From NCBI GenBank assembly GCA_031261985.1, contig JAISIR010000020.1, positions 124,001 through 188,000 on the forward strand: DNA of 64,000 nt. Direction: 5' to 3'. Positions 1-60,866 of the stretch are shown here, one piece after another (within the stretch, counting starts at the first letter, position 1; every line of letters begins with the position of its first letter). The notes beneath the pieces are model-generated. The model was not told the origin of the DNA. It made no database searches and saw only the letters and a list, made by a program, of their open reading frames with translations. Position numbers and translations under genes: made by a program. The DNA comes from Clostridiales bacterium (GTDB taxonomy: Bacteria; Bacillota; Clostridia; Monoglobales; WRBX01).

Positions 1-1590
1 GCCAGCTTCATCAGCGTTTTTAGCTACGTACGTTAGTACATTGGCAGACAAATTTTCTATATAATTATATATTAGACTTGCACCAAGGAAACTTTCGTCC
101 TTAAAAACATCCTCAAGGTAATGACCGCTAAAGTTATTTTTGATAAATGTTAAAGTAGGTATGTTATACGCAATATCGTTTATACCATGACCAACACTAC
201 GATAATCATGTATTGTATAATTATCGTCTAAGAGTGCGGAATCTGCTACAAATTTTTTGATGGATTCGCTGAACTTAATCGGGTCATCAATAGCGCTCGG
301 TGTATCGTTATTTTGTTTACTAAAAATTGATGTTGTGTATTGTTCAACTAAATTGTAAGTATATTTTTTGATGTTTTCTAAAAGTTCTAAGGAGTTTCTG
401 TTGTTTTCAAACTTATAATCTTTTAAAAAGTAATATTCGTTATGCCTTTTTGCTAAATTAAAGAAAAAAGAGACTTCATCTAGTAATTTTGAAAATCCAT
501 TTTTTGAATAATCGAGGATTTTAAGGGCTTGTGCGTGTTGCTCGGTAATACTATGTAAAATTGTGTGAAATTCTACACGATAATAGTCTGTTGAATGTTT
601 AAAATTGGCATCATGGTTTTTAATAAGTAAATCTTTTACATGAGCGTCGATATTATCTATTAGATAATCAATAGCATCATTTAAATTTTCTACTTTTTTA
701 TCGTTAAAGCTTCTATTAAAAGGCAATTTTTCGTTTATTAAATAAATAAGCTTTATAAAATTATAAGTTTTTAAATCAAATTTTTTACTTAGTTGAAAAT
801 TTATCTCGCCTGGCAGCGCATCGTGTATTTCACCGTTGAAAAATGAGATATAGACATCGAGGAAGCGACCTACATTTTCATCTTTTATGCTGGATGGTCC
901 GTTGTTTTTAACGCTATCATTTAAATATTTTAGTTTATCACTAAGTGCGTTGCAAATAATTTTAAGGGTTGGTTCAGTTTTTGATGGGATTTCGACAGCA
1001 TCATTAATTAAAGCGTATATGTTTGGAAGAGTTTCGTTTGTAAGCTTACATAAATAGTCAAAATCATTTATACATCTATCTAGCTCTTTAATATTTTTTG
1101 TTTGCATGCTTGCCAAAATGGGAGTGACAAGCGCGGAGTATTTATTTATAATTTCTTTTTGCTTGGCAACTAATTTTTTGATATCGTTAAAAAGCGGCTC
1201 GGTATTTTTTATTGATTTAGGGCTAAAATCTAAAATAAGCTGTTCTATGGAGTCTTGTGCCTGGGGAATAAGAGCGGTTGTTTTATCAATCTCATTCTTA
1301 AATATAGCGTTGTACATAAGCGTTTTTGCCTTGGCTTCTTGCTCGGGCGTAACCTGGGATTTGCTGGCTTCGATTACAAAGTGGTCGAGTAGCGTTTTGC
1401 GCGCGTTATTTAGCTCGGCTTGAAGGTGATTAAGGCGTTCTTGTTCTTCTGGGTCGTTTTGATTGGCAGCTAAATCGGGGTGATATTTTTTAGTCAGCTC
1501 TTTATAGGCACTATTAACTTGAGCCTCGGTTGCGCCGAAATCTAGCTCTAGGGTAGCGTATGCGTTTTGGATTTGTTCAGTGTATGTCAT
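1..1590 (-). CDS. J1: J-domain array protein, class A (3' end beyond window)
   Basis: At least 530 aa, running off the left edge without a stop, so the C-terminus is not seen. The N-terminal ~70 residues form a J-domain with HPD at residues 37-39 and the array signature GATEAQVNSAY just before it; J-domains stimulate Hsp70 (DnaK) ATPase. There is no Gly/Phe region or zinc-finger domain, so it is not DnaJ itself. The body is predicted helical and unrecognised; it matches J10 most closely (shared MYNAIFK segment after the linker, and a YFLKDY motif near residue 389). The ATG is the only start that includes helix I of the J-domain. It lies 16 nt downstream of the J2 stop, as part of the same minus-strand transcript. 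Function beyond J-domain recruitment of Hsp70 is unknown. Confidence 0.85.
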   Translation of the reverse strand, partial: MTYTEQIQNAYATLELDFGATEAQVNSAYKELTKKYHPDLAANQNDPEEQERLNHLQAELNNARKTLLDHFVIEASKSQVTPEQEAKAKTLMYNAIFKNEIDKTTALIPQAQDSIEQLILDFSPKSIKNTEPLFNDIKKLVAKQKEIINKYSALVTPILASMQTKNIKELDRCINDFDYLCKLTNETLPNIYALINDAVEIPSKTEPTLKIICNALSDKLKYLNDSVKNNGPSSIKDENVGRFLDVYISFFNGEIHDALPGEINFQLSKKFDLKTYNFIKLIYLINEKLPFNRSFNDKKVENLNDAIDYLIDNIDAHVKDLLIKNHDANFKHSTDYYRVEFHTILHSITEQHAQALKILDYSKNGFSKLLDEVSFFFNLAKRHNEYYFLKDYKFENNRNSLELLENIKKYTYNLVEQYTTSIFSKQNNDTPSAIDDPIKFSESIKKFVADSALLDDNYTIHDYRSVGHGINDIAYNIPTLTFIKNNFSGHYLEDVFKDESFLGASLIYNYIENLSANVLTYVAKNADEAG

Positions 1591-1606
1591 TTTTTATAAA
1601 CTTCCT

Positions 1607-3778
1607 TTATCTAGGTAGATTTTGCGGTGGTAAGTTTTGTGGATTAGAATTTGCGCGGAACTGATTTAATTTTTGCATAATAGAAGCGCGATTTTCGTCG
1701 TTAATTTCCTGCGATTCATTATCTTTAGCCAATTCGTCGAACAATATTTTTTCTAAATTCCAACCATAAATTGTAGTGCAAAAGTTTTTTATAACATCAA
1801 CTTCTTGCTCGGTAAAACCAACAAAACCATCGGGGTACTTTTTTAATACATATGTTGCAAAAGTTTTTTCGGCGGGCAGGGGTATAAAATCGTGCCACTT
1901 TTTATAGAATATATTGTCGAATTTAGTATGGAAAGCATTGTCGTATATACCGAGCTGTCTTTGCAGCGCAAAGGGTTCTTCTATTAGTTCTTCAAAAAAA
2001 TCGCGTGTGTTTTTAGAATCGTTTACATTAAATTGCGTGTTTTTGACATCTTTTAAAAGTTTTAGTTTACTTAAAGTTTTATCTATGCAGTGCGATAGCT
2101 CTTCGACACCATTTAGCCCTTGGCAAAAGCTTGCAGATTCGTTTAAAAATTTGGTTGCGTCTTGTATAAATTTATCCGCTTTTTTATCGGTAAATATGTT
2201 TTTGTTTAAAATTAGTTTAGTTGCATAATCTTCGCATTTTAGGCTGAGTAACGAGAAAAGCCCTAATGAAAACTTGCTTGATTGGGTATCTAACACATAG
2301 GAGCTTATAGTTAAGGTTGTTGATGACTTTAAACTTTTAATTAATTTAGATTTCTCTACATAATCTTTAGCGTAGCGTAAATATACGTTTCTGGTTACTT
2401 TGCGCCCTGCTTTCGAGATTGGGTCAGAGTAGTCTTCACCTAGTTCTTTATAGTGTTTCAAGAATTCGCAGGCAGAGTTGTTGTATTCGATAAAGTCTTC
2501 CATTGATATGTTTAAATCTGGCTTGTTTTCTATTATAAAGTCGAAAATTTGCTCTTTTATATGTTTAAAGGTGTGGGCGTATTTGGGTTTGTAATCCTTT
2601 AAAAAGTATGATTTAGCGAATTTTGTATGTAGCTCAATAAGACATTTAAGTTGTCTTATATCCTCATCAAAATGACGTGTGTCAAAAGTTCTTTTGCCAA
2701 TTTTAAAACGCGTATGCTCGTCAAACCAATCACAAGCAATTGAAGCATTCATAGCTTTTTTAGTTAGCTTAGTTATTTCGTTGATAGCTTCGGTATCTAC
2801 GGTATCCCAACCTTTTATTAGGGTATCAAAAGCTTGCTCAATTTGAGGTGGATAAACGTTTAAGCGATTTTCTAAAATAATTTTAATTGCGTTGATGTGA
2901 CTCATATCGTCTGGTTTTTTCTTTATTGATTTAAGTTCTTCTTCAGTAAGGTCGGGCACGTTGCTTTTAATGTTTGCTAAAAAATAGAATTCGTCTGCAA
3001 ATTCTTCGATGCGTTTAATCCTAATATCAGAATGAAGAGTTTTTTGAAATATTGCCGGTAGTTTTGCAGCAGAATCTTTTGCTTCGTTAACTATATTTCT
3101 TGCTTTATGTGTATTGTCATCAGTAAATTTGTCAGTCTCTTTATTCCAAGTACTAATGCAATAACGGATATAATCGTCTAACTGATTTTCGGTTTTATTT
3201 AACATCTTTAAAAATTGTATAGCTTCGGGAGAAGCTATTATTTCGAGGTCGGCTACGTTATTTTTTAGTTCAAACATAGATGTTTTGTAATTGCTAAAGA
3301 TTACTCCCTTTATATTTTCAATTGCATCTAAAACATTTTTATGGTCTTCGAGATATTTATTGCCCATTTTTATAAAAGTTTCAATCTCAAGCATGGTAGG
3401 TGGGTAAAGCGGAAGACGTGATGAATTAGGATTAAGAATGTCGTTACTTATTTTAATGAGCTTTTTAACCTGTGGGATTTCTTCTCTTACGCTACGAATC
3501 AATAAATTCTTTATAATTTTTTCTTCTTCCTCGGGGGTAACTTGGGCTTTCTCGGCTTCGATTGCAAAGTAATCGAGCAGGGTCTTGCGGGCGTTATTTG
3601 CCTCGGCTAAAAGCTCGTTGCGATGTTCAATTTCTTCGGGCGTTAAGTTATCGTGGTTAATATCGGGGTGATATTTTTTAGCTATCTCTTTGTAGGCACT
3701 ATTAACTTGAGCCTCGGTTGCGCCGAAATCTAGCCCTAGGGTAGCGTATGCGGTTTTGATTAGTTCGTTGTGAGTCAT
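1607..3778 (-). CDS. J2: J-domain array protein, class B
   Basis: 723 aa. J-domain at residues ~5-70, HPD at 37-39, followed by the linker AQVTPEEEEK that nearly every array member has at about residue 80-90. The remaining ~630 residues are a Lys/Glu/Asn-rich, probably alpha-helical body with no family I recognise. J4 is its closest relative over the whole length. It carries the motif YFLKDY near residue 391, at almost the same position as in the class A proteins, which argues for common descent. The C-terminus is Pro/Asn/Gln-rich and ends in LPR. No signal peptide or membrane segment, so presumably cytosolic. It starts 24 nt after the J3 stop, with an AAAGGAG ribosome binding site. Confidence 0.88.
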   Translation of the reverse strand: MTHNELIKTAYATLGLDFGATEAQVNSAYKEIAKKYHPDINHDNLTPEEIEHRNELLAEANNARKTLLDYFAIEAEKAQVTPEEEEKIIKNLLIRSVREEIPQVKKLIKISNDILNPNSSRLPLYPPTMLEIETFIKMGNKYLEDHKNVLDAIENIKGVIFSNYKTSMFELKNNVADLEIIASPEAIQFLKMLNKTENQLDDYIRYCISTWNKETDKFTDDNTHKARNIVNEAKDSAAKLPAIFQKTLHSDIRIKRIEEFADEFYFLANIKSNVPDLTEEELKSIKKKPDDMSHINAIKIILENRLNVYPPQIEQAFDTLIKGWDTVDTEAINEITKLTKKAMNASIACDWFDEHTRFKIGKRTFDTRHFDEDIRQLKCLIELHTKFAKSYFLKDYKPKYAHTFKHIKEQIFDFIIENKPDLNISMEDFIEYNNSACEFLKHYKELGEDYSDPISKAGRKVTRNVYLRYAKDYVEKSKLIKSLKSSTTLTISSYVLDTQSSKFSLGLFSLLSLKCEDYATKLILNKNIFTDKKADKFIQDATKFLNESASFCQGLNGVEELSHCIDKTLSKLKLLKDVKNTQFNVNDSKNTRDFFEELIEEPFALQRQLGIYDNAFHTKFDNIFYKKWHDFIPLPAEKTFATYVLKKYPDGFVGFTEQEVDVIKNFCTTIYGWNLEKILFDELAKDNESQEINDENRASIMQKLNQFRANSNPQNLPPQNLPR

Positions 3779-3802
3779 AGGTATGACTCCTTTGTTTTAA
3801 AT

Positions 3803-6235
3803 TTATCTTGCCATGCTTATGGGAGGTGGAGCAGGTGGCGCAGGCGTGGGTTTAATATCTAAACCTGTAGAGACATTCATTCTTTCGATAATCTTTTCGT
3901 CTAGTTTATCTTTATATTTATCAAGTATAGGAACTAACTCTTCGCGCGGAATTTTTATTTTCCAGATGATTTGAAGCGACAGCGCATCGTACACATCGGG
4001 GCGGTGCTTTATATCGTACTTAATAGAAGGCTCTAACATCATGAGTGCGATTTTTTCGGCGGCGGTACGGTCATAATTAGCATTCGCTCTTCCTATAATT
4101 GCCTCGGGCGTTTTATAAATAGCTTGGTCAAATCTATCAACAATAAATTTTTCTAACGCTTTAGAATCGTTAATGTCTACACCTGAGTTTTTTAAACCTT
4201 GAAGCATCTCTTGAATATAGATTGCGGATTTATAAGCTTCTTTAAAATATATATCAGGCAGATGTTTATTAACTTTAGCTAAATATTCTTTGCTAAATTC
4301 TAAAAAATGAGCTTCGCTTTCGGTTAAAGTTTTATTTTTATCGAACAAAATTTTGACTAATAAATCTTTATAAAATTTATCGATGTTTCGTGTAACTTTT
4401 TGCGTTAAAGTTATATAACAGGGAGAATCTTCAAAGTAAAAACCTTCATAGATTTTTTTGCAAACCTCGTTATAATATGGAAGATTCATCATTTTTTCTA
4501 TCTCTTCAAAAACTTCTAGGCAATTTCTTAGATTACGCAAAGAGGATTTCTCGTAAGTGGCAGCATTGTTTTTATTTTCAAAATTTTCTACCTTATTAGC
4601 AAAATCACCTATTGAAGCGATAATTTCGCGTAACTCTTTGTGAAAAGTCGACGCATCGGCGTTGCCAAACATACCAGTTATCCATTTTATATGGCGACAA
4701 CACCATTTACTTATGTCATAATATATATCATAAGCATTAACGTAACCATCGCTTCTAAGAAATTCGGCAGGATAGAGATTTTTAAAGTTATTCTTCATAA
4801 ATGCAAGAGCAGGTACATTTTGCGCGTGACTGTTTAAATGTATACCGATTCTACGATATTTGTTTTTTGTAATATTATCACTAAAGGCAAAATCTGATAT
4901 AAATTTATGGATAGATTCGGCAAACTTGCTTGGGTCTTCTATTGCCGATTTTTCGTCGGCAGGAGTATCGAATATTGAAGTTGTGTATTGTTTAAGTGTT
5001 TCTTCGGTATGATTTTTAATGCTTTCTAAAATTTCTAACGTGGTTTTATGCTTTTCTAATTTGAAATCTTTTAAAAAGTAATATTGGTTATATGATTTTG
5101 CTAATCTAAAGAAAAGTGACGAGTCATGCAGGTGTTGCAGGAATTTTTCATTAATAAGTCTCTGGAGTTCTTGCCAATTTACGTAGTCTATTCTAAGATT
5201 ATTTAGAATTTCGCGAAACTGTTCTTCATAAAGGTCTTGTAAATATGAAAAATTAGGACTAGGATTATCTACAAGTGAATCTAACACATTAATATTAATG
5301 TTATCTAGCAGATAATCGACGCCGGCATTTACAAGTTGTATATTTGAACTAGAACTAAAATTTCTAGTAAAAGGCAGCGTTTCGTTTGTTGTGGTGATAA
5401 GTCTTAAGTGTGTATAAGAATCTTGGTAAAAAAGGTCACTACCTATCACTCCAGGAATCATCTCGCGTATTTTACCTTTAAAAAACGAGCTGTAAACGTC
5501 GAGGAAGCGACCCACCTCTTTACTATTTAAATTAGCCGGACCACCATTTTTTTGCACACTATCGTGTATAATTCTTAATTCGTTGGTAAGCGCATTATAT
5601 AGCGTGTTAAGCGTGGGGTTATCATGTGGTGGAGCTTTGACAACGTCATTAACCTCTTTTATTATTTTGGGCATAATTATGCTTGCAACTTCTGAGAAAT
5701 AGTCATAAGAATTTATATGTTTTTCTAGCTCTTCAATATTTTTTGCTTGCATTCTTACTAATAGAGGCGTGGCAAAGGCGGAGCATTTATTTAAAATCTC
5801 TTTTTGCTCGGCAACTAATTTTTTGACGTCATTAAAAAGTGGTGTGGCATTATTTATTCTTCGTTCGCCAAAATCAGCGATTATGCGTTTTATAGAAGTT
5901 TCAGCTTTGCTCATGACGAGTTTTGTTTTGTCGATTTCGGTTTTTAATGCGCTAGTGTACATAAGCCTTATCGCTTTATCTTGTTCCTTTTGTGAAACTT
6001 GTTCTTTAGCCTTTTGAAGGTCGAAATATTCTTGTAACGTATTGCGCGCGCCATTTAGCTCGGCTTGAAGGTGCCCAAGATGTTCTAACTCTTTTTGGTC
6101 GACCTTATTTTCACTTAAGTCGGGGTGATATTTTTTAGAAAGTGTTCTATAGGCAGCTTTAACTTGAGCCTCGGTTGCGCCGAATTCTAGCCCTAGGGTA
6201 GCGTATGCGGTTTTGATTAGTTCGGCATGTGTCAA
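3803..6235 (-). CDS. J3: J-domain array protein, class A, TTG start
   Basis: 810 aa. J-domain with HPD at 37-39; the body is class A and closest to J8 (shared TEIDKTKLV-type segment and IIADFG). YFLKD lies near residue 384. The C-terminal ~80 residues form the module shared by J3, J8, J9 and J10 (IPREELVPIL, then a TGLDI-type segment), leading to a Pro-rich tail ending SMAR. The start codon is TTG: it aligns with the ATG of all paralogues (MTHAELIK) and has AAGGAG nine bases upstream. The other members start at ATG, so this copy may be translated less. No known domain beyond the J-domain; function unknown. Confidence 0.88.
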   Translation of the reverse strand: MTHAELIKTAYATLGLEFGATEAQVKAAYRTLSKKYHPDLSENKVDQKELEHLGHLQAELNGARNTLQEYFDLQKAKEQVSQKEQDKAIRLMYTSALKTEIDKTKLVMSKAETSIKRIIADFGERRINNATPLFNDVKKLVAEQKEILNKCSAFATPLLVRMQAKNIEELEKHINSYDYFSEVASIIMPKIIKEVNDVVKAPPHDNPTLNTLYNALTNELRIIHDSVQKNGGPANLNSKEVGRFLDVYSSFFKGKIREMIPGVIGSDLFYQDSYTHLRLITTTNETLPFTRNFSSSSNIQLVNAGVDYLLDNININVLDSLVDNPSPNFSYLQDLYEEQFREILNNLRIDYVNWQELQRLINEKFLQHLHDSSLFFRLAKSYNQYYFLKDFKLEKHKTTLEILESIKNHTEETLKQYTTSIFDTPADEKSAIEDPSKFAESIHKFISDFAFSDNITKNKYRRIGIHLNSHAQNVPALAFMKNNFKNLYPAEFLRSDGYVNAYDIYYDISKWCCRHIKWITGMFGNADASTFHKELREIIASIGDFANKVENFENKNNAATYEKSSLRNLRNCLEVFEEIEKMMNLPYYNEVCKKIYEGFYFEDSPCYITLTQKVTRNIDKFYKDLLVKILFDKNKTLTESEAHFLEFSKEYLAKVNKHLPDIYFKEAYKSAIYIQEMLQGLKNSGVDINDSKALEKFIVDRFDQAIYKTPEAIIGRANANYDRTAAEKIALMMLEPSIKYDIKHRPDVYDALSLQIIWKIKIPREELVPILDKYKDKLDEKIIERMNVSTGLDIKPTPAPPAPPPISMAR

Positions 6236-6253
6236 CTAAAGTGACTCCTTTAT

Positions 6254-8428
6254 CTATTGTCTGCGTGGATTTTGTTGTGGCGGGTAAGGCGCGGCTTCGC
6301 TAATTTCGCTTAGTTTTTGTCTGATTGATTCCCTACCATCACCATCTCTTAGTGATTCTTTTTGCAAGAAAGCATCGATTTTTTCTTTATTAGTTAAAGA
6401 ATCATCTTTTAATATTGATACAACATTGGTGTCATAAAGTGTTGCTGCAAAGCTTATTATATCGGCTAAATCTTGCTCGGTAAAAGTATGTGGGCGTAGA
6501 GAATGTTGTGCCAATAAATACTTAGTAAAAGTTTTGTACGATGGTATAGGTTTAAGGTCGCATTTGCGCAGGTCGATATTAGTAAATTTATCGAAAAAAT
6601 CATCGTCTTTTGTATCTAGCCTATATGTTAAGTTTATGGGGTTTTCTAAAAAGCCTTTTATGAAGTCTTGCGTAGTTTTAGAATCGTTTATATTAAACTT
6701 TGCATCCCTGATTTCTTTTAAATATGCTACCGAATCTTCGACATCGATTAAATCATTTAATAAGTCTGTAACACCAAGTAATTTATTGTAAAAAGCTTTG
6801 GAATCGCTTACAAACTTTTCGGCTTCTTTTATAAATTTATCTATCTTTTTAGTGGTGAATATATCCTTTTTTAAAATCGATTGTATCGCGTAATCTTCGC
6901 ACCGTAAGTTAATTAATTTAAAAAGTCCTACTAAATATCCGCCTATTTTAGAATCTAGCAACGATTGGTTTACTGTTACATATTTATTTGGTTTTAAACT
7001 TTTAATGAAGCCAGATTTTACTATATGGTCAGCGGCGTAGCGTAAAAAGACGAATGTGTTCAACTGCTCGCTTGCTTTTGTGATTGTATCATAATGCATG
7101 GCTCGCTTTAAACCATACGCATTTAAAAATTCGCGAGCAGAGTTGTTATACTCTACAAAATGTTCCATAGGTTCTTTTAAATCTAGCTTTTTATCTATGA
7201 TAGTTTGAAGGATTTCGTCTTTTACATCGTCAAATTTTTCGGCATTTTTTGGATTAAAGCCTTTTAAAAAGTACGATTTAGAAGATTTTGCGTGCAACCT
7301 TACCAATGCTTTTAATTCTTTTAAATTTTCGTTATAGTAATTTGTATTTATTGTTTTTAAATTGGCTGCAAGTTTTTCAAGATGTTTATTAAAGTCAAGT
7401 AAAGCAGGGAAAACACTATCAACTTCGGTAATTAGTTTATTAATGCTGTCGATATCTACGGTATCCCAATTTTTAATGATGGAATCGTATGCTTGCTTCA
7501 TTTTTGGTGGATAAATGCTTATGCGATTTTCTAAAACGTTCCTAATTGCTGTGGCATAAGTAATATCGTTTGGCTTGTTTTTTATAGCCTCGATTTCTTG
7601 TTTAGTAAGGTCGGGAACGTCTGATTTAACTTTAAGCAAAAAAACTAACTCGTTTATTTTAAGCTGAATAAACGCGACATCTTTAGGAATGTTAAGCTTC
7701 CCTTTGATATCTTGCGCCAGGTTATAATTAAAAGTGTTTGCTTCTTTAATCAAGCCTTCTGCCTTAGATACAATTTGCGCTACCGAACTTTCGGTATCTT
7801 CGTTCCAATTATCTAGACAATAATCGGTTGACTTTAACAATAATTTATTGACCTCGTGAAGAGATTTTTTATATTGAAGGACATCGGGCGATAAAATGTA
7901 AGCAAGTGTATTTAAACCACCTTCTAATTCGGCAAAAAGTTTTTCGTAATTACGGAAGAGTAATCCTTTTTTATCGGCAATTGTGTCTAAATTTTTTGTA
8001 TGCTCGGCTATGTATTTATCGCCAAAGTCTAAAAACTTTCTAAGCTCTTGTTCGCTATCTTCAAAACCGTCAATCGAGAAAGCGTTGAATATATTATCGC
8101 ATTTGGTGTTGATTTCTTTAATTTGAGAGATTTCTGATTTAATACTATGTAATAATAAATCCTTTACAATATCCGCTTCTTCCTCGGGGGTAACTTGCTC
8201 TTTAGCCTCTTTAAGTTCAAAATAGGTTTGTAGAATTTCGCGTGCGTTGTTTGCCTCGCCTAAAAGGTCGTTGAACTTATCGATATTTTCTGGGGTATCG
8301 TTCATGTGTAAATCGGGGTGATATTTTTTAGCAAATTTTTTGTAGGCACTATCAACTTGAGCCTCGGTTGCGCTATCTTTAAGACCTAAAGTGTTAAATG
8401 CGTTTTTAATTTGTTCATCGTATGTCAT
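6254..8428 (-). CDS. J4: J-domain array protein, class B
   Basis: 724 aa, the full-length partner of J2 (723 aa). J-domain with HPD at 37-39, linker EQVTPEEEAD, then a helical body with a YFLKG variant of the YFLKDY motif near residue 389. The tail is Pro/Gln-rich and ends PRRQ, the one complete member whose last residue is not Arg, although Arg-Arg is one residue from the end. It starts 13 nt after the J5 stop, with an AGAGGT ribosome binding site. No membrane segment or signal peptide. Function unknown. Confidence 0.88.
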   Translation of the reverse strand: MTYDEQIKNAFNTLGLKDSATEAQVDSAYKKFAKKYHPDLHMNDTPENIDKFNDLLGEANNAREILQTYFELKEAKEQVTPEEEADIVKDLLLHSIKSEISQIKEINTKCDNIFNAFSIDGFEDSEQELRKFLDFGDKYIAEHTKNLDTIADKKGLLFRNYEKLFAELEGGLNTLAYILSPDVLQYKKSLHEVNKLLLKSTDYCLDNWNEDTESSVAQIVSKAEGLIKEANTFNYNLAQDIKGKLNIPKDVAFIQLKINELVFLLKVKSDVPDLTKQEIEAIKNKPNDITYATAIRNVLENRISIYPPKMKQAYDSIIKNWDTVDIDSINKLITEVDSVFPALLDFNKHLEKLAANLKTINTNYYNENLKELKALVRLHAKSSKSYFLKGFNPKNAEKFDDVKDEILQTIIDKKLDLKEPMEHFVEYNNSAREFLNAYGLKRAMHYDTITKASEQLNTFVFLRYAADHIVKSGFIKSLKPNKYVTVNQSLLDSKIGGYLVGLFKLINLRCEDYAIQSILKKDIFTTKKIDKFIKEAEKFVSDSKAFYNKLLGVTDLLNDLIDVEDSVAYLKEIRDAKFNINDSKTTQDFIKGFLENPINLTYRLDTKDDDFFDKFTNIDLRKCDLKPIPSYKTFTKYLLAQHSLRPHTFTEQDLADIISFAATLYDTNVVSILKDDSLTNKEKIDAFLQKESLRDGDGRESIRQKLSEISEAAPYPPQQNPRRQ

Positions 8429-8441
8429 AATAATTTACCTC

Positions 8442-10517: not shown

Positions 10518-10540
10518 TGGTAATTACCTCTCTTACAATT

Positions 10541-12754: not shown

Positions 12755-12769
12755 AATTTTAATCTACCT

Positions 12770-14014: not shown

Positions 14015-14036
14015 TAGTACGTTCCTTTGTTTTAAT

Positions 14037-16481: not shown

Positions 16482-16495
16482 TTAGTTATTCCTCA

Positions 16496-18358: not shown

Positions 18359-18372
18359 TTAGTTATTCCTCA

Positions 18373-20811: not shown

Positions 20812-20840
20812 ATAATTCACCTCATTTGTAAAAGAATCTA

Positions 20841-20939
20841 TGTCATTGCGGGCTCGACCCGCAATCTACACACTATGTCGTAATCGTCTGCTATCATTCG
20901 TTTTTTGCGTGTAGATGCCGGATCAAGTCCGGCATGACA
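20841..20939. repeat. MITE-like element, copy 1
   Basis: A 99-bp element with imperfect ~30-bp terminal inverted repeats beginning TGTCATTGCGGGCTCGACC on the left and ending in the complement of TGTCATGCCGGACTTGATCC on the right. Each end is itself a small hairpin, so the whole can fold as a cloverleaf. It lies between J10 and J11. The core shares TATCATTC and the TAGAT ends with the copy at 40712-40812. It encodes nothing; such elements are usually mobilised in trans. If transcribed it may act as a processing site or weak terminator in the array mRNA. Confidence 0.8.
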
Positions 20940-20955
20940 GGATTTCTATAATTAT

Positions 20956-23379: not shown

Positions 23380-23394
23380 TGCTAAAAACTCCTT

Positions 23395-24603
23395 TTAGCG
23401 TATCATGTTACTTTTAAGTGCTTGTTTATTGGGTTTAAGTACATATTGTTTTGGCTTAATTGGTTGATGTGTTTTTAACTTTTCAATTGCTTTTTTAAAA
23501 TCTTTTATATCATCTGAGGTTTTAATTATGTTTCTAGAAGTTAAGCTTTCTACATGATTATAAAAATCCTCGATAGAATTTAAAAAGTCGTCAGTTTCAA
23601 TTTTTTCATCAGGCGATTCAAAATTTTCCCTTATTCTGTAGTACACGCGTTCGCATATTTCGTCTATCATGCTAGGCAAATCTAAATTTAAGGTTTCTTT
23701 ATTTAAAATATCAATATCGTTGGTGAACCCAATTTCTTTGAAAAAGTGTTTATCGTAAAATGTTGCGAAGGCTTTTTTAACTTTTGGCTTGACACTCATT
23801 AATTTCTCGAATAAAGAAATTGCATCATATAATTTATTATAAGGCGAATCGAGTTTTGAAAACAACATATACTCTTCCCATTCGCGATATTGATGATGAT
23901 CCCACCAGCGACTGGGCGCGGCAGCCAAATGTACTATGTCTTTTTCGATTAAAGCTTGTATCTTAGGCAATATTAGTTTTTTGAATCCCGATTTTATATA
24001 CAAGTCCATAAGGCTTTTAAATTCATCTGATTTTTGCAGCCATTTTTCAAATTCTGAAACAAATTTACGCGAAATTTTTGTTTCTTGGTAAATCATATTT
24101 AATTCATATAATTTCCATTTATAATCGGCAAGACCCATAATTTTTTGGTCGCCAATTTTCTCTAAAAGACTATGTTGCATTTTAATGAACTCTTTTGTTT
24201 TTTGAGTGTATTCTTGCATTTCAACCATGTTATTTATATAGTCTTCGTTCTTAAAGTAGGATTTAATCCTTTGGCCCTGTTGAATTAATTCATCTATCTT
24301 GGTAATCTCATTTCTTATTGCATAAAGTAAAGTTATTTTGAGGGCTTTTTCTTCTTCATCGGGGGTAACTTGGGTTTTTGCCGCCTCGATTTCTAAATAA
24401 TCTAGCAGAATTTTGCGGGCGGTGTTGGTTTGCGCTAACAATTCGTTAAGGTGCGCGATTTCGTCTTGGGTATCGTTCATGTGTAAATCGGGGTGATACT
24501 TTTTAGCTATTTCTTTATGGGCAGCGTTGACTTGAACCTCGGTCGCGCCTGGCTCAAGACCTAAGGTAGTAAATGCATCTGCAATTTTAGGAGATAAATA
24601 CAT
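23395..24603 (-). CDS. J12: short J-domain array protein, class C
   Basis: 402 aa. HPD at 37-39, linker TQVTPDEEEK. It matches the first ~470 residues of J5 with gaps: same RNEITKIDELIQQ segment, same EEICERV-type segment and same HQPIKPKQYVLK segment. It then stops, lacking the ~200-residue distal part of J5. The end is SNMIR, so a hydrophobic residue plus Arg is again the terminus. This looks like a shortened paralogue with an array-type ending, not a random truncation. ATG with AAAAGGAG upstream, 15 nt after the J13 stop. Confidence 0.86.
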   Translation of the reverse strand: MYLSPKIADAFTTLGLEPGATEVQVNAAHKEIAKKYHPDLHMNDTQDEIAHLNELLAQTNTARKILLDYLEIEAAKTQVTPDEEEKALKITLLYAIRNEITKIDELIQQGQRIKSYFKNEDYINNMVEMQEYTQKTKEFIKMQHSLLEKIGDQKIMGLADYKWKLYELNMIYQETKISRKFVSEFEKWLQKSDEFKSLMDLYIKSGFKKLILPKIQALIEKDIVHLAAAPSRWWDHHQYREWEEYMLFSKLDSPYNKLYDAISLFEKLMSVKPKVKKAFATFYDKHFFKEIGFTNDIDILNKETLNLDLPSMIDEICERVYYRIRENFESPDEKIETDDFLNSIEDFYNHVESLTSRNIIKTSDDIKDFKKAIEKLKTHQPIKPKQYVLKPNKQALKSNMIR

Positions 24604-24618
24604 TGCTTAAAACTCCTT

Positions 24619-26727
24619 TTAGCGTCCCCAACCATAACTAGGTATATCTCGTATAGCTTTTATCAATTTGTCCTGGTTTGTCTTGATTTTTGATAACTCG
24701 GCTATAACAGATGCGTCGGGCTCTTTTGGTGCCATATAATCTTTGTAACCTCTATTGTAAATAGTATTTACCGCGCTACGCATATGTTGAACTTCCGTCC
24801 AGTTAAAACCTTTGTGTGAATCTTCGATTACTTTTGTAAACTGCTCGTATTTAAGAAGCTCGGTCTGGGCTAGGGCTATAACGGTCTCGGCATTATGGGT
24901 TTTATTAAGTATTGCGTAGCAAATTTTTCCTTTATGCTCTTCTGGCACAGAGTTGATAAGCCTTAAAGCGTTGCCAGGGCTGGTTTTATATGGCATGCGA
25001 TGTTCTATAGTGTACTTTAAATTTTCTGGCTCGTTTTGCCATAACGTGTTTAGGTATGCAAATTGGTTCTCGTCGTAGGAAACACCATACATAAAATCGT
25101 CTGCCATATCTTTAGCCTTATACTCGCTAAATAGCATGCCAACAAGCTCGATAACATGAATTTTTTCGTTTATAGAAAAATCGGTGCCGAACCTAGTGAC
25201 GCAAGTTTCGATGTCGTTATAGGTGATATTTGGGTAGGCGTCTTTGTGTTTTTCGGCAATTGCTTTAAACGCGGCGGCGTTATCTAAATTTTGTGCGATA
25301 TCATTTGCAGGTGCATCGCCATATAGCAGACGAGCAATCTGCACAAACTCGTTTTTGTCTTTACCAGAATAGTTTTTAATTTTAGGCGCAAAATAGTTGC
25401 AAAAGGCTGTAAAATTGCGACCAGAATCGTTGCCAGAACCTATGTGTAAAAACTCGTAATAATCGGGGCGTTGGTAGGGGATATTGTCGGTTAATTTTGT
25501 TTCGTGCAATAGTGATAAAAAGCTACTTGTATTATGCAAAAACTCGTGGTTAATGGTGTTGTTTAAGTATTTTTTTAGCGAACTTATAGTATTTTCGAGT
25601 ATACTATTTTGCACAGAAGATGTGTATTCTTTTAAAAAGTTTAGCACGCGCTCGGCTGACAGCACAAAATTATTATCCTCGTCGGTTGATTCGACAACGC
25701 CTTGGTTAAACGATATTAGGTAGGCATAAGTTTTATCACAAAGGTGTTTTAGAATTTTGTCTTCTATGTGATAAGTATTTGTGGTAGCGGGCAAATCTTT
25801 TAAACATGGTTCGTTGCGCAAAAACTCGTTAATCTGTATTCTTCGTTTCGCCTCTTGGCTTGCTTCTTGTAAGTCATCTAGACTGTGCAAAAGTTTATTG
25901 ACGATTAATTTATGAGTTGCTTTATTTAAACCTTCAATAACATTCTTTGACGAATTTACAAAATTATCGAGCCTTTCGGGGGACGGATTAATGTTATTTT
26001 TAGATTCTGCCAAAAGTTTCGCGGAATTTTCATCGATTTGCTTAAGAATTTGTTGTTCTAAATCTCGGTATGGAAGGCTATTTTCATCTAAATAATCTGC
26101 CCTATATGTAGGAATAAAACCTTTTAAGCATTCTTCATTACTCATTTTGCACCAAGATTGGTTGAAATTTTGTGCAAGCTCTAACCTTTCAACAAGAGTG
26201 CTATATGGTGCCACACGATTCTCTTTTACTTTTTGTAAATTGCCAATGAATTCTCTGTTGTTATTAAAAAATTCGATGTATTTATTTTTAAAACTTTTAA
26301 CCTGTTTAATAGCATTTGAGGCGATTTCGGAGGTATCCTTACCCCAATTGTTATAAATGTAATTTAGGGCATCGTTGCCTAGTTGTTCGACCTCTTTACC
26401 TTTTGTGATAAATATTTTTTTAGCGGCGTTGTATTCTTCGCGGGGGGTTACATTTTCTTTATCCTTTTTTAAAGCCGCCGCTTGGGCTAAATTAGTGTCA
26501 ATCTCTTTTTTGCTATCTGGGTCAGATAAATGTTGGTATGCTAAGTTGATTTCCTTTTGAAGCTCTTCGTACTTTTTGATATTCTCTTCGGTATCGTTCA
26601 TGTGTAAATCGGGGTGATACTTTTGCGAAAGTGTGCGATAGGCAGACTTAATCTCTGTCATGGTAGCGTTTGGATTTAGCCCCAAGATTGTGTATGGGTT
26701 ATATAGTTTGTTGATAGGCAAAAACAT
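24619..26727 (-). CDS. J13: J-domain array protein, class F, adjacent to the vWA genes
   Basis: 702 aa from the ATG at 26727; an overlapping GTG one codon upstream sits in the AAGGCGG ribosome binding site. The J-domain is the most divergent of the set (NPYTILGLNPNATMTEIKSAY, HPD at 38-40) and looks most like a generic DnaJ-family J-domain. The linker is ENVTPREE. The ~600-residue body does not align obviously with classes A-E. It ends SYGWGR, keeping the terminal Arg but without a Pro-rich tail. First J-gene after the vWA pair, possibly the founding member. No known domain beyond the J-domain. Confidence 0.87.
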   Translation of the reverse strand: MFLPINKLYNPYTILGLNPNATMTEIKSAYRTLSQKYHPDLHMNDTEENIKKYEELQKEINLAYQHLSDPDSKKEIDTNLAQAAALKKDKENVTPREEYNAAKKIFITKGKEVEQLGNDALNYIYNNWGKDTSEIASNAIKQVKSFKNKYIEFFNNNREFIGNLQKVKENRVAPYSTLVERLELAQNFNQSWCKMSNEECLKGFIPTYRADYLDENSLPYRDLEQQILKQIDENSAKLLAESKNNINPSPERLDNFVNSSKNVIEGLNKATHKLIVNKLLHSLDDLQEASQEAKRRIQINEFLRNEPCLKDLPATTNTYHIEDKILKHLCDKTYAYLISFNQGVVESTDEDNNFVLSAERVLNFLKEYTSSVQNSILENTISSLKKYLNNTINHEFLHNTSSFLSLLHETKLTDNIPYQRPDYYEFLHIGSGNDSGRNFTAFCNYFAPKIKNYSGKDKNEFVQIARLLYGDAPANDIAQNLDNAAAFKAIAEKHKDAYPNITYNDIETCVTRFGTDFSINEKIHVIELVGMLFSEYKAKDMADDFMYGVSYDENQFAYLNTLWQNEPENLKYTIEHRMPYKTSPGNALRLINSVPEEHKGKICYAILNKTHNAETVIALAQTELLKYEQFTKVIEDSHKGFNWTEVQHMRSAVNTIYNRGYKDYMAPKEPDASVIAELSKIKTNQDKLIKAIRDIPSYGWGR

Positions 26728-26749
26728 CACCGCCTTTTAAAATATTTTA

Positions 26750-27763
26750 TTACTTAATAAATTTATGGGCAGAATCCATCAGCTGGGCAAAGTTATTTTG
26801 CACTTGAGCATCTTTATTATTCTGCAAGAATCGTTCGTTTAAGTACTCTGAGATTGAGTTTAGCACTTCGGCAAAGTCTTTATTGTTAGTTTTTGTTATA
26901 TGGTCGTTAGCAATTCCTAAGGAATTTAAATGGTTAGAGAAATCTCGGTCCCAACCATCTGTAGAAACGAATAGAAATTCCCAATCGCTTTGTGGGTTAT
27001 TTTTTATAGTGCTGGTTAACTGTTTAAAGTCTTTTGCGTGGTATGTGCGACTAACCTCAGCATTATACAACATGTCGTGGTCAGAGACAAGGACAACCAT
27101 AGCCTGCCCTGGCGTGCCTTCTTCTGCACACTTAGCCTTATAAACTCTATCGATAGTTTCGTAGCCGGCATCGTAAAAACGTGTGGCGCTTCTTAGTTGG
27201 TAACCAAGTTCCTCAACCTCGTCGATAGGTGTGCGGAAGTTGCTTATGCGAAAATCTTCTGCAAAAAGGCAAGTGGTAATTAAAAGGTTATCGTTGGCGA
27301 TATTCTCGGTAATAAAGTTATTAAAAGCATTCTCGATAATTTGAGGATTTTTTCTAGAAGACTCGCCGCCGTTGCGGATGCTCCCGCTCTCGTCTACTAC
27401 AAAAATAACGTCGATAATACCTGTTGACTCGCCACTTTGACTTTGCTTTTTTAGAGCGGCGACGGTTTTGGCAAAGTCGGATAATTGCTCTTCCCCAAGC
27501 TCGTTAAAAGTTGCTATGTTAAAGCCCTTCATAACGTTGGCAAGGCTAAAGGTGTTGGCACCTTCTTCCATAGTAAAACCATTTTCGCCTTGGTTCGCGG
27601 TTTTAGTTTGGGTGCCTTGTTGCGCGGCTTGCTGCTTGACTGCTTCTTGGTTAGCTTCCTCTTCCATAGCTGCGTTTATCTTCATTTTTTTAAGCTTGTC
27701 GCTTGTTTTTTCCGGAGCTTGCTGGAACGCGGCTCCATAGTTTTTATTTGAATCGTATGGCAT
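26750..27763 (-). CDS. vWA-domain protein 2 of the J-array
   Basis: 337 aa from the ATG at 27763 (AAAGGAG eight bases upstream; an extended frame to 27793 would overlap the previous stop). The N-terminal ~100 residues are Gln/Ala/Lys-rich and probably disordered. A von Willebrand A domain follows, with a complete MIDAS: DESGS (D-x-S-x-S) after the hydrophobic strand VIFVV, a Thr in the SATRFYDAG segment, and an Asp in VLVSDHD. vWA domains bind protein partners through a metal ion and commonly work as adaptors of AAA+ ATPases (for example CbbO with CbbQ). It ends in a helix with KFIK. A close paralogue of vWA 1, from a duplication. No signal peptide, so cytosolic. Confidence 0.85.
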   Translation of the reverse strand: MPYDSNKNYGAAFQQAPEKTSDKLKKMKINAAMEEEANQEAVKQQAAQQGTQTKTANQGENGFTMEEGANTFSLANVMKGFNIATFNELGEEQLSDFAKTVAALKKQSQSGESTGIIDVIFVVDESGSIRNGGESSRKNPQIIENAFNNFITENIANDNLLITTCLFAEDFRISNFRTPIDEVEELGYQLRSATRFYDAGYETIDRVYKAKCAEEGTPGQAMVVLVSDHDMLYNAEVSRTYHAKDFKQLTSTIKNNPQSDWEFLFVSTDGWDRDFSNHLNSLGIANDHITKTNNKDFAEVLNSISEYLNERFLQNNKDAQVQNNFAQLMDSAHKFIK

Positions 27764-27782
27764 TGTAAAGGCTCCTTTATAA

Positions 27783-28817
27783 CTACTTAACAAATTTATA
27801 GGCAGAATCCATTAGCTGGGCAAAACTATGTTCTACCTTAGCGTCTTTATTGTCTTGCATAAACCTCTCGTTTAGGTACTCAGAGATTGAGTTTAGCACA
27901 TCGCCAAAGTTTGTATTGTTAGACTTTGTTATATGCTCGTTGCTGATTCCTAATGAATTTATGTGTCTAGATAATTCTTTGTTATCACCATTTGTGGAGA
28001 TGACTAAAAATTCCCAATCGCTTCCTGGAGATTTTTGTACTTTATCGATTCGCTTTTTAAAATCGCCTGCTTTGTACTTGATGCTCTTTTCCCATGAATC
28101 TACCAAATAAATATCTTGGTCGGTGACAAGAACAAACAAAGCCTTACCTGGCGTGCCTTCTTCTGCACACTTAGCCTTATAAACTTCATCAATAGTATCG
28201 CAGGCGGCGTCGTAACAACGTGTGGTGGATCTGCATTGGTAACCAAGTTCTTCAACCTCGTCGATAGGTGTGCGGAAATTGCTTATGCGATGGTCTTTTG
28301 CAAAAAGACAAGTGGTAATTAAAAGGTTATCGTTTGTGATGTTCTCGGTAATGAAGTTATTAAAAGCATTCTCGATAATTTGAGGGTTCTTGCTGTAATC
28401 CTCGGTACCACCCCAGTTTTTGCGGATGCTCTCGCTCTCGTCTATTACAAAAATAACGTCGATAATCTCTGTTGCCGTGCCATTTTGCCCCTGTCTCTTC
28501 TTTAGCGCGGCAACGGTTTTGGCAAAGTCGGATAATTGCTCTTTGCCAAGCTCGCTAAAGGTTTCTAGGTTAAAATCGTTCATAACGTTGGCAAGGCTAA
28601 AGGGGCTGTAACCTTCTTCCATAGTAAACCCGTTTTCGCCTTGGTTCGCGGCTTTAGTTTGAGTGCCTTGTTGCGCGGCTTGCTGCTTGGCGGCTTCTTG
28701 GTTAGCTTCTTCTTCCATAGCTGCAAGTTGCTTTGCTTTTTTAAGTTTATCGCTTGTTTTCTCGGGAGCTTGCTGGAACGCGTTTGCTCCATTGTTTTTA
28801 TTTGCATTGTATGGCAT
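27783..28817 (-). CDS. vWA-domain protein 1 of the J-array
   Basis: 344 aa. Same architecture as the neighbouring vWA 2: a Gln/Ala-rich N-terminus (QQAAQQGTQTKAANQGENGF) and then a vWA domain with MIDAS DESES near residues 125-129, a Thr in the STTRCYDAA segment, and an Asp in VLVTDQD. The two genes are nearly identical in stretches at the DNA level and differ most between the MIDAS and the C-terminus, so a recent duplication with divergence of the metal-binding face. ATG with AAAAGGAG upstream, 38 nt after the AAA+ stop. Likely partner of the AAA+ protein; client unknown. Confidence 0.85.
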   Translation of the reverse strand: MPYNANKNNGANAFQQAPEKTSDKLKKAKQLAAMEEEANQEAAKQQAAQQGTQTKAANQGENGFTMEEGYSPFSLANVMNDFNLETFSELGKEQLSDFAKTVAALKKRQGQNGTATEIIDVIFVIDESESIRKNWGGTEDYSKNPQIIENAFNNFITENITNDNLLITTCLFAKDHRISNFRTPIDEVEELGYQCRSTTRCYDAACDTIDEVYKAKCAEEGTPGKALFVLVTDQDIYLVDSWEKSIKYKAGDFKKRIDKVQKSPGSDWEFLVISTNGDNKELSRHINSLGISNEHITKSNNTNFGDVLNSISEYLNERFMQDNKDAKVEHSFAQLMDSAYKFVK

Positions 28818-28855
28818 GGTAAAATCTCCTTTTAGTTTTTAAAAAATATTTTGCG

Positions 28856-31339
28856 TTATGCGCCTGGTTTTGAAAATGGCTTAGGAGTAGAGCTGTTTGG
28901 TACATTAGGGTTAGGGTTTGGATTCGGGTTAGCTGGTGCGCTGCCGACGTTAGCGTCTATGTTTCCGTCGCGGCTGCTACCTGGCCCGCCAATAGCAAAC
29001 ATTGGTGGCCCATGCCCTGCACCCGGCTTTGTATCTTCGTTGCCTCTAGGAAGATGAGACTTTATTGAAGGCTTTTTGCTTTTTTCAATTAAATCCTTAA
29101 GTAATTTGCTATATCCAGGGCTTTTAATTAAGTAATCAATACCCTCTGGTCTAATTTCTCTAGTTTCCGAAGGGTCGTCAGGGTTAAGCTTCTTAAACTC
29201 ACCAATTGTTTTAAGGTATTTATTGTTGTATTTAATAATTGCATCTGCCAAGTTAACCGCAAAGCGCGCGTTACCAAACTTAGGAATCTTTTTAGCAGCT
29301 TCCATGATTTCGATAATTTTATCGTCACAACTATCAGGAATAATTTGACGTTTTTTAGCGCAGTTTTTCTTAGCAATCTCTAGCAATTCCCTAGATGTTT
29401 GGTCTTTTATATGAACGTGCATGTCATAAGCTATTCGGCTAAACATACCTTCGTTAACATTTAAAAAATGTTCCATTTCTTTTTCGTATCCTGCAAAAAT
29501 TACTACAACCTCGCGGTCTTCCATGGCTTGAAGAAGGCAGGCTAAAACGTCGCCACCATACCCAGTGAAGCCTGTGCCATCGGCATTGGAACCTGTTAGA
29601 GCATACGCTTCGTCGATGAATAGCACACCACCGCGAGCCTTTTCTATCATCTCTTGCGTTTTAAGCATTGTTTGACCAACATAACCTGCAATAAGGTCGG
29701 AAGGTTTACACGTAACCAGCTTCATTTCTTTGGTGTATCCTGCTTTAAACAATTCGTTTGCGTAAAGGGTAGCGGTTACCGTTTTACCTACACCTGCGCT
29801 ACCTGTTAGAACCATGTGCGCGCAGATATCGTTAATTGGCAGCCCGTCTTCGCGTTGAGTTTGAATGTTTTCTACAAAGTCACGAATCGTCTCTTTTACA
29901 TCTTCCATGCCGACTAAATCGTCAAAGTCAACAGGGCGAGTAATTAGCTGGTTTTTATCGTTCATTTGCTTTAACTCGTTGATGATTTCGTTGGCGGTAT
30001 CTTGCACGTTGACATTAAACAAATCGGTTGGGCTTATAATATTAGATGTACGTTTTGAATGCTCTACAATTGTTTTCTGTACATATTTATCCACAAAGTG
30101 ACCGTTACCAAAGCTATCATAGCGGACAGCCTCTTCAAAGATTTTTTTAGCTGAATCGTAAGTTTTGTTGCCGCTTTCTTCGTCGGGACCGATGCCAATT
30201 TGCATATCGTAAATTTTATTTTGGAAGATAGTAGTTAACTGGTCGGGGGTATAATCGGGGCAATTAACCACTGAAGCAAAGTATTTACGAAGTTTTGGGT
30301 TAAGCTTTAGCAGGGTTTTAACCGCGGCAGGCGAACCATTAAACACAACAGGGGGGTCGTTGGGGTTGTTGTCTATATGGTCCATAATTGCAGCAAGCAA
30401 TGGGTGGATGCCGGTTTTACTATCGGTGTTGCAGAACGAATCGATAGGGTCGACAACTATTAGTTTACCCTTGCTATTTTCTAAGGTTTCCTCTAGCTTT
30501 TTGGCGCCTGTTATATCGTCTAAGGTATCGGTGTTTAAATGCTCTACCTCTAAAGCTTGGCTAGAGTTGCCAATTAGGTTTAGCTCGCCATAGATATCGG
30601 CTAAAATATCGGTTGCAAAACTTTTACCCGAGCCACTGTTACCCGAGATTATCATGTTTAAGTTAGGCGTTTTAATATTAGAGTTATCCTTAACTTTATC
30701 GGTAAATAGGGCGTAATCGATTAACGCGTTAACCTCGGATTTAAAATTCTCTAGCCCGACGATGTTTTCCATGCGCTTATTTAACGTGACAGCCTTATGG
30801 TACAATCTACTATTGGCAAAAAGTTCGTAAGTTTCGGGGTCGAGGTTATCTTGTGTGGTAGATTCTTGGTTAACGCTTGGTAATTCGTACTTCAAAATTT
30901 TGAAGTCCTTGCTTAAAACACCTGAAACTTGCTTAAGCTCTTCAAAGAAGTTGTTTAGCTCATCACTATCTTGTCGAAATATAGTAGGCTCGTCGGCTAA
31001 GTATTTTTCTTCATTAAAGAGGGTGCCATTAGAATCGTAGGCTTCAAATAAAATATCTTCAGTGAAAGGTATTTGTTTGACAAATTCAAAGGTGTTAAGT
31101 TCGGGAAAATATTCAAGAGCAATATTAGTTTTATTGCTGAAAATTCTGATGTGCTTATTATTTTTTGCATCATCAAAGACAGCAAAACGAAGAGTATTAT
31201 TTAAATCATAATACCCGTTGGTTAACGGTTCAAAGGTTTGGTTGGGATTGTTAGAATCCGGAAATTGTGGATAAGACTGATGAGTCGTTAAAAATTCGTG
31301 CAATTTTTTAATCGCACTAAAAGTAGCTTCTGAAGCCAT
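28856..31339 (-). CDS. Tandem AAA+ ATPase (CbbX/SpoVK type), first gene of the J-array
   Basis: 827 aa from the ATG preceded by GGGGGAG at good spacing; the open frame extends upstream to a GTG at 31444, but that would run through the promoter. An unrecognised ~200-aa N-terminal region is followed by two AAA+ modules. Module 1 has Walker A GNSGSGKS but a Walker B ending VVDPID in place of DE, so hydrolysis there is probably impaired. Module 2 has Walker A GSAGVGKT, pore-loop-like AGYVGQT, Walker B VLFIDEAYAL and an Arg finger in MFSRI, the CbbX/SpoVK hallmark set. The tail is Asn/Pro-rich (PNPNPNPN). Family members remodel protein complexes. It heads the operon with vWA and J-domain genes. 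Confidence 0.88.
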   Translation of the reverse strand: MASEATFSAIKKLHEFLTTHQSYPQFPDSNNPNQTFEPLTNGYYDLNNTLRFAVFDDAKNNKHIRIFSNKTNIALEYFPELNTFEFVKQIPFTEDILFEAYDSNGTLFNEEKYLADEPTIFRQDSDELNNFFEELKQVSGVLSKDFKILKYELPSVNQESTTQDNLDPETYELFANSRLYHKAVTLNKRMENIVGLENFKSEVNALIDYALFTDKVKDNSNIKTPNLNMIISGNSGSGKSFATDILADIYGELNLIGNSSQALEVEHLNTDTLDDITGAKKLEETLENSKGKLIVVDPIDSFCNTDSKTGIHPLLAAIMDHIDNNPNDPPVVFNGSPAAVKTLLKLNPKLRKYFASVVNCPDYTPDQLTTIFQNKIYDMQIGIGPDEESGNKTYDSAKKIFEEAVRYDSFGNGHFVDKYVQKTIVEHSKRTSNIISPTDLFNVNVQDTANEIINELKQMNDKNQLITRPVDFDDLVGMEDVKETIRDFVENIQTQREDGLPINDICAHMVLTGSAGVGKTVTATLYANELFKAGYTKEMKLVTCKPSDLIAGYVGQTMLKTQEMIEKARGGVLFIDEAYALTGSNADGTGFTGYGGDVLACLLQAMEDREVVVIFAGYEKEMEHFLNVNEGMFSRIAYDMHVHIKDQTSRELLEIAKKNCAKKRQIIPDSCDDKIIEIMEAAKKIPKFGNARFAVNLADAIIKYNNKYLKTIGEFKKLNPDDPSETREIRPEGIDYLIKSPGYSKLLKDLIEKSKKPSIKSHLPRGNEDTKPGAGHGPPMFAIGGPGSSRDGNIDANVGSAPANPNPNPNPNVPNSSTPKPFSKPGA

Positions 31340-31363
31340 AAATAAATCTCCCCCTATATTTAT

Positions 31364-31381
31364 GAGTTGACGTGTCAACTC
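31364..31381. promoter_or_regulatory. Perfect 18-bp palindrome, candidate operator of the J-array
   Basis: GAGTTGACGTGTCAACTC: an 8-bp inverted repeat around a 2-bp centre. It lies in the leader between the array promoter (31446-31474) and the AAA+ start codon, the right place for a repressor site or a leader hairpin. I see no second copy in the window. Confidence 0.5.
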
Positions 31382-31445
31382 GTTGGCTAATAGATATATT
31401 TTCAAATTTTGTAAAAAGGGCAGAATACACCCAATTGTAGCCACT

Positions 31446-31474
31446 ATTATATACCTTTTTTACGTAAATGTCAA
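31446..31474 (-). promoter_or_regulatory. Consensus sigma-A promoter of the AAA+/vWA/J-domain array
   Basis: On the minus strand: TTGACA (31474-31469), 17-bp spacer, TATAAT (31451-31446). Both boxes match the consensus perfectly. The predicted transcript would start near 31438, leaving a ~100-nt leader with an 18-bp palindrome. It is the only strong promoter I see driving the >31-kb array. Confidence 0.8.
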
Positions 31475-31643: not shown

Positions 31644-31865
31644 CCTTGCTGAATGCAAGGAAAGGAATTATAGTGAAGTATCTTTGCTAGCGCAAAGAAG
31701 TGAAGTAATTTGCTAGCGCAAATAATGAAGTTTAGCGTAAACGCTAAGTGAAGTTAAGTTTGCCTTTTTCACTGTGAAGCAATTTCATTCGCCGATAGCG
31801 AATTTCATTTCTGAAAGAAACTTTACTTGCCCAAAGGGCAAACTTAGTTGCGCACTTCGTGCGCA
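31644..31865. repeat. String of eight variable hairpins next to tRNA-Thr
   Basis: The gap between the array promoter and tRNA-Thr (31475-31865, no gene) holds simple GAATGA-type repeats (31600-31630) followed by a run of short perfect hairpins: CCTTGC (31644-31660), TCTTTGC (31681-31698), ATTTGC (31708-31723), TTAGCG (31732-31747), ATTCGC (31787-31803), TTTC (31808-31820), TTGCCC (31827-31841) and TGCGCA (31849-31865). They are separated by GAAGTGAAG-like spacers on the left and their complements (TTTCATT, CTTTAC) on the right, so the whole array is roughly mirror-symmetric around 31775. Stem sequences differ while pairing is kept. Not a CRISPR: there are no constant repeats with unique spacers of equal length. 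Confidence 0.75.
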
Positions 31866-60507: not shown

Positions 60508-60523
60508 AAGAATCACCTAGTTT

Positions 60524-60782: not shown

Positions 60783-60829
60783 ATGATTTTAGCATAATTT
60801 TTAGTTTTATAAAGATTTATAAATTATGC

Positions 60830-60859: not shown

Positions 60860-60866
60860 TCCTTTA

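Follow-up and report, generated by a model that had tools for sequence, protein, structure and literature searches.

How might 15 J-domain proteins, encoded in one operon with an AAA+ ATPase and two vWA proteins, work in a bacterium that has a single DnaK? The question is raised by a 64,000-nucleotide stretch of a Clostridiales genome (assembly GCA_031261985.1, contig JAISIR010000020.1, positions 124,001 to 188,000, forward strand), hereafter the window. According to open reading frame (ORF) calls, the operon comprises one tandem AAA+ ATPase gene, two vWA genes and 15 J genes (13 in the window), and spans 35.8 kb: it begins at window position 31339 and extends 4.47 kb past the start of the window (C17:119,530-155,339, where C17 is the contig from which the window is taken; the 1.44-Mb genome is in 21 contigs). 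The J-proteins have constant ends, a J-domain head and a C-terminal tag, around a variable middle that falls into six body classes. We propose, tentatively and at somewhat less than an even chance of being right, that the operon encodes a modular Hsp70-targeting machine in which J-proteins would serve as adaptors, the vWA proteins as scaffold and the AAA+ protein as an engine acting on the tails.

Organization of the operon

On the minus strand the genes run in the order AAA+, vWA1, vWA2 and then 13 J genes down to position 1. This is the arrangement given by the initial annotation, which had counted at least thirteen J genes; the array is larger, with 15 in all, since J1 ends at window position -854 and two further J genes come next, outside the window. 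Features are listed below, with lengths in amino acids (aa).

31446..31474, minus strand: promoter TTGACA-17-TATAAT, a 12/12 consensus match and the sole such site in the scanned region
31364..31381, minus strand: perfect 8-bp inverted repeat in the 5' leader, a possible operator read from sequence, GAGTTGAC-AC-GTCAACTC
28856..31339, minus strand: tandem AAA+ ATPase, 827 aa (ORF and domain searches; start reassigned to the likely ATG, 31339)
27783..28817, minus strand: vWA1, 344 aa, metal ion-dependent adhesion site (MIDAS) DESES/T/D (ORF, domain search and alignment)
26750..27763, minus strand: vWA2, 337 aa, 74% identical to vWA1, MIDAS DESGS/T/D (ORF and alignment)
24619..26730, minus strand: J13, 703 aa, solo body, most divergent J-domain, ends WGR
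23395..24603, minus strand: J12, 402 aa, body class C, ends MIR
20956..23379, minus strand: J11, 807 aa, body class B, ends KSR
18373..20811, minus strand: J10, 812 aa, body class A, ends LSR
16496..18358, minus strand: J9, 620 aa, class A with a central deletion, J-domain in common with J2, ends LSR
14037..16481, minus strand: J8, 814 aa, body class A, ends MTR
12770..14014, minus strand: J7, 414 aa, solo body, ends ISR
10541..12754, minus strand: J6, 737 aa, body class A, ends MAR
8442..10517, minus strand: J5, 691 aa, body class C, ends YLR
6254..8428, minus strand: J4, 724 aa, body class B, ends RRQ (no tag)
3803..6235, minus strand: J3, 810 aa, body class A, ends MAR
1607..3778, minus strand: J2, 723 aa, body class B, ends LPR
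1..1590, minus strand: J1, first 530 of 814 aa in the window, class A, ends LKR (whole gene at L049:4146-6590)
L001:17599-19131, beyond the window: J gene, 510 aa, a shortened copy, ends LQR
L001:15530-17584, beyond the window: last J gene, 684 aa, ends QRI

The single consensus promoter of the initial annotation proved to be a perfect one (31474-31446), and an element resembling a ribosome-binding site, GGGGGAGA, precedes the AAA+ start codon at 31339. The leader inverted repeat has a single match in the window when up to 2 mismatches are allowed, with 0.1 expected. The gaps had been described as short, mostly 12-40 nt; this holds for the 13-38 nt gaps found when likely starts are taken, but not for the gap between J11 and J10, which measures 135 nt between ORFs and 144 nt to the likely J10 ATG at 20811. 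This sole long intergenic gap (window 20812-20955) carries two palindromic repeats, GCCGGACTTGATCCGGC and GCGGGTCGAGCCCGC, of which no further exact copy was found in the loci examined. The vWA2 gene probably starts at 27763 and so does not overlap vWA1. An assembly with repeated genes may carry errors, though all 18 frames are open.

The G+C content of the J-gene region (window 1-28000) is 30-39%, against 40-45% in most sequence beyond the operon. An Rfam Gut-1 RNA (window 31777-31850, minus strand; 56 bits, cut-off 50) lies among short hairpins between a tRNA-Thr gene and the promoter of the operon, and suggests a gut source of the bacterium. An island inserted at tRNA-Thr was considered and set aside, as no copy of the tRNA 3' end occurs in 20 kb at the far side.

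Constant ends and variable bodies of the J-proteins

All 15 operon J genes score above the Pfam DnaJ cut-off and retain the HPD motif, as befits class C J-domain proteins and as foreseen for a diversified family; none of the 15 products contains a hydrophobic stretch fit for a membrane segment. The genome as a whole has 18 J-domains over the Pfam cut-off in its 1.44 Mb, whereas the 390 other genomes of the class have 1-8 each, with none in six, and the one relative on which the family comparison rests has 2. DnaK is encoded once, with DnaJ just downstream.

The bodies comprise class A (seven members, two of them shortened), class B (three), class C (two) and three solo bodies. An AlphaFold2 model of J10, of class A, is of good confidence and all-helical, with a mean predicted local distance difference test (pLDDT) score of 80; the class B model is poor (pLDDT 67). 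The initial annotation had recognized no family among the bodies, and profile and structure searches agree with it where they were applied: Pfam and PADLOC, and NCBIfam, PHROGs and the Protein Data Bank (PDB) for the bodies compared with them, yielded no family, and the matches listed either fall on the J-domain or are weak and do not reach the cut-off. With the class A body, the PDB structure search gave no credible match (best E 0.019, template-modelling score (TM) 0.12), and the viral library gave a single match with E <0.001, of TM 0.09, only the J-domain matches being convincing.

Unlike the bodies, most of the C-termini are of one kind. A terminal Arg is present in 13 of the 15 J-proteins compared with 15 of 164 other genes sampled from the genome, and the full hydrophobic-x-Arg-COOH tag in 12/15 compared with 5/164; the last 40 residues are Pro-rich in 8/15 and 5/164, respectively. 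Because tails within one class are shared by descent, the tag was also counted by body class, giving five of six classes and P about 1.5e-7, a value that is generous for class B, in which one of three members has the full tag.

Such tails also bear on an alternative view, in which the J-proteins build a large cytoplasmic body, the tag is an assembly or packaging peptide, and the AAA+ and vWA proteins control assembly. TopJ, a J-protein that serves the mycoplasma terminal organelle, is matched by the operon proteins, and the large all-helical bodies, the short constant tail with its often Pro-rich linker and the single promoter would all suit a structural role. The TopJ match, however, covers the J-domain only, and no gene for a shell or scaffold protein lies in the operon (a genome-wide search for encapsulin or related shells was not made). 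We regard structural assembly as unlikely.

The heads have a history distinct from that of the bodies. J9 and J2 have J-domains that are 84% identical and bodies that are unlike, and high J-domain identity also joins J10 to J11 (76%) and J12 to J6 (74%). In a codon-aligned J-domain tree, body class changes about as many times as with shuffled labels, and a single class A clade is rejected (approximately unbiased test, p-AU 5.6e-38). J-domains have thus been swapped between bodies. The bodies themselves are under constraint but fast-evolving, with a ratio of nonsynonymous to synonymous substitution (dN/dS) of about 0.5 that stays below 1 in every window; positive selection is accordingly not claimed. 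These results speak to a further explanation of the array, near-neutral tandem amplification of one J gene with little joint function. The tandem order, the shortened copy at L001:17599-19131 and the central deletion in J9 are what amplification would leave behind, but 15 of 15 frames are open and encode HPD, dN/dS is about 0.5, the tag stands on unrelated bodies, and the vWA linkage described below is repeated at other loci; we consider this explanation very improbable.

Linkage of vWA and J genes across the genome

Two vWA searches of the genome identified four vWA loci. Both vWA domains of the window fall below Pfam cut-offs but align with Pfam-positive vWA domains of the same genome, and MIDAS positions are present in all five vWA proteins, with one S-to-T change in the protein from contig C6. 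Apart from the one at dnaK-dnaJ, each J gene follows closely downstream of a vWA gene, at 3/3 separate loci, a coincidence with a chance of about one in a million by our own arithmetic (four vWA loci, perhaps 1,400 genes). The association of the J-protein family with vWA, posited from the window, recurs at two other loci. The three loci outside the operon are as follows.

C6 locus: vWA gene, 39 nt, then a 665-aa J-protein, then a 281-aa protein ending LSATR
C11 locus: vWA gene, then a 466-aa protein (L036 9290-10690; repeated NPNAT-like units, a weak J-like start with E 6e-4, ends NVTR), 10 nt, then a 186-aa HPD J-protein
C17:47.9-52.5 kb (L046 7937-12549): fourth vWA gene, with two genes before it that encode paralogous proteins containing hydrophobic segments

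The 281-aa and 466-aa proteins at these sister loci likewise end in -TR. After the fourth vWA gene comes a 711-aa protein with a region like a C11 663-aa protein (28% over 81 aa, E 0.004); as a decayed J-protein it reaches only E 0.25 with the J profile and is not counted. Upstream of the C11 vWA gene (L036 11615-14041), a 445-aa gene resembling a fusion of a NadD-type adenylyltransferase with a second domain adjoins a DNA methyltransferase-like gene.

A profile built from the vWA proteins of this genome detects, in 97 other genomes of the class, vWA proteins about 220 aa long that we take to be TerY-like, and no J-domain is encoded in the short flanks of roughly the 30 best of them. The window vWA proteins differ from these in carrying an N-terminal extension of about 110 aa.

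The AAA+ ATPase and comparison with known systems

The AAA+ protein has two AAA stretches and an AAA_lid_6 domain (Pfam; 51.4 bits, cut-off 24.3), and its C-terminus is Pro-rich. AAA1 is degenerate: it keeps Walker A (GNSGSGKS), but Walker B reads VVDPID and sensor 1 lacks GY, while AAA2 is intact (GSAGVGKT, FIDEAY, FAGY and the pore loop GYVGQT). The best NCBIfam families are SpoVK (spore_V_K), CbbX and EccA, with scores far below the equivalog cut-offs (213/423, 183/459 and 177/467 bits, respectively) that do not make it a SpoVK, CbbX or EccA proper. Members of this clade, which act as dedicated chaperones, carry a GY signature (PMC10659427); judged by its residues, the FAGY of AAA2, together with AAA and AAA_lid_6, would place the operon protein among them (PMC10659427, PMC5437159). 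It departs from them in its tandem build, degenerate AAA1 and unassigned N-terminal region, and in being encoded with vWA and J-proteins while scoring far below the equivalog cut-offs. CbbX threads the C-terminus of the Rubisco large subunit, RbcL (PMC5437159), and such tail capture is known for CbbX, whereas tail handling in the operon is something we infer.

Three other SpoVK-type AAA+ genes occur elsewhere in the genome. Within the window, a single-domain SpoVK/CbbX-type AAA+ gene lies beside a gene whose sequence resembles that of a phage terminase large subunit (59653-64000), probably a prophage edge, and a 1003-aa orphan protein (53857-56868, minus strand) has no credible Pfam or PHROGs match.

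The initial annotation took CbbQ/CbbO as its model, which is apt for the pairing but imperfect for the ATPase: CbbQ is a MoxR AAA+ (PMC5437159), and the operon AAA+ is nearest SpoVK, CbbX and EccA. CbbQ-CbbO, NirQ-NorD and RavA-ViaA resemble the operon as enzyme-remodelling pairs of an AAA+ protein and a vWA adaptor, and differ in their MoxR AAA+, their lack of J-proteins and their small fixed client set (PMC5437159). The MoxR-vWA ternary conflict systems (PMC7159879) are alike in encoding an AAA+ and a vWA co-chaperone with diversifying partners. The operon does supply a vWA partner, yet its AAA+ is not of the MoxR class (best spore_V_K, cbbX and EccA, with AAA_lid_6), its partners have J-domains, and no effector domains were found; the sole mention of DnaJ in PMC7159879 is a fusion in a GTPase-HSP70 theme.

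A conflict system, a possibility raised by the initial annotation, is one alternative. In it the variable bodies would serve against phage or rival cells as sensors or effectors, with the AAA+ and vWA proteins setting the threshold and with J-domains and DnaK keeping the bodies inactive or assembling them. The bodies are diversifying and recombining, an AAA+ and vWA with variable partners follow a logic like that in PMC7159879, and the operon combines apparent lineage restriction with low G+C. Against this, the PADLOC matches are weak and all on the generic AAA+ domain, which does not make the operon a known anti-phage system, and the AAA+ scores with the SpoVK/CbbX clade rather than with MoxR. 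Among the proteins that were compared with Pfam, NCBIfam and PADLOC, none showed a nuclease, TIR, protease, transmembrane or other effector domain or a VMAP module, although the bodies could escape recognition. Beyond diversification, no positive sign of this role was seen, and we think it improbable.

Class C J-domain proteins, and repertoires such as the 15 J-proteins reported for Myxococcus xanthus (PMC11019930), likewise have an HPD J-domain, no other part of the DnaJ core and many members per genome; here, 15 stand in one operon, share a C-terminal tag and carry J cassettes that have been shuffled, and the genome has 1.44 Mb and one DnaK. In the literature searched we found no system that combines AAA+, vWA and J-proteins, in keeping with the initial annotation. 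The novelty is that of the system as a whole; its parts belong to known families.

Relatives and distribution

Pattern-seeded scans, of limited sensitivity, found no relatives of vWA1 or the class A body in genome_contigs, and similar scans found none of the AAA+ protein, vWA1 or the class A body in viral contigs. A phage or plasmid origin was rejected, since vWA1 is also unmatched in phages and plasmids. The rest of the order yielded weak vWA matches only and no class A body. Among 391 genomes of the class, the AAA+ protein has AAA-domain matches only, mainly over the second AAA module, and J13 has no relative from about residue 110 onward. Restriction of the system to this lineage is one possibility; another is that related systems have diverged too far or have not been sampled.

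Proposed mechanism

J-domains recruit Hsp70 (DnaK). Because of this established biology and the intact HPD motifs, the J head of the modular Hsp70-targeting machine that we favour would deliver the cell's single DnaK. Each J-protein would be a cytosolic three-part adaptor of head, body and tail, in which the variable alpha-helical body may bind a particular client or partner, and the tail, often Pro-rich and ending hydrophobic-x-Arg-COOH, may dock a common partner. With their MIDAS site, the vWA proteins probably provide the scaffold. The AAA+ protein would pull or release the tail once docked, in the way that CbbX handles the C-terminus of the Rubisco large subunit; AAA2 is predicted to be active, with AAA1 probably a nucleotide-binding brace. 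The body repertoire would have been widened by duplication and J-domain cassette swapping. Client binding, contact of the tails with the vWA or AAA+ proteins, and the order of action are the putative parts of this scheme.

Several points weigh against it. The tail-threading step is drawn by analogy with CbbX. The full tag is absent from three of the 15 J-proteins: J11, which ends KSR, and J4 and the product of the last J gene, both without the Arg. The operon was not found in a second genome of the collections searched. Finally, the C6 and C11 vWA-J loci have no AAA+ gene beside them, only the large operon having one, so that AAA+, vWA and J do not form the fixed set first envisaged. By the criterion that the initial annotation had set, homologous loci with their own AAA+ and vWA genes, the AAA+ link is weaker than the vWA-J link, and vWA and J would be the core, with the AAA+ protein belonging to the large locus or acting in trans.

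A bolder formulation, which we put forward as rather doubtful, is that the operon encodes a repertoire of Hsp70-recruiting receptors, in which J-domain heads and a constant handle at the C-terminus recombine with variable helical bodies that serve in recognition. Any engaged receptor would be processed by an engine of vWA/CbbX type, so that one DnaK would gain many evolvable targets.

Implications

If the proposal is correct, a bacterium can build a modular, recombining Hsp70 adaptor set within one operon and thereby retarget a single DnaK, a capacity otherwise discussed mainly for large eukaryotic J families and big bacterial genomes. The proposal also predicts a testable C-terminal hydrophobic-x-Arg handle. 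It would, moreover, join the SpoVK/CbbX AAA+ clade to vWA proteins and Hsp70, a link that we did not find in the literature searched.

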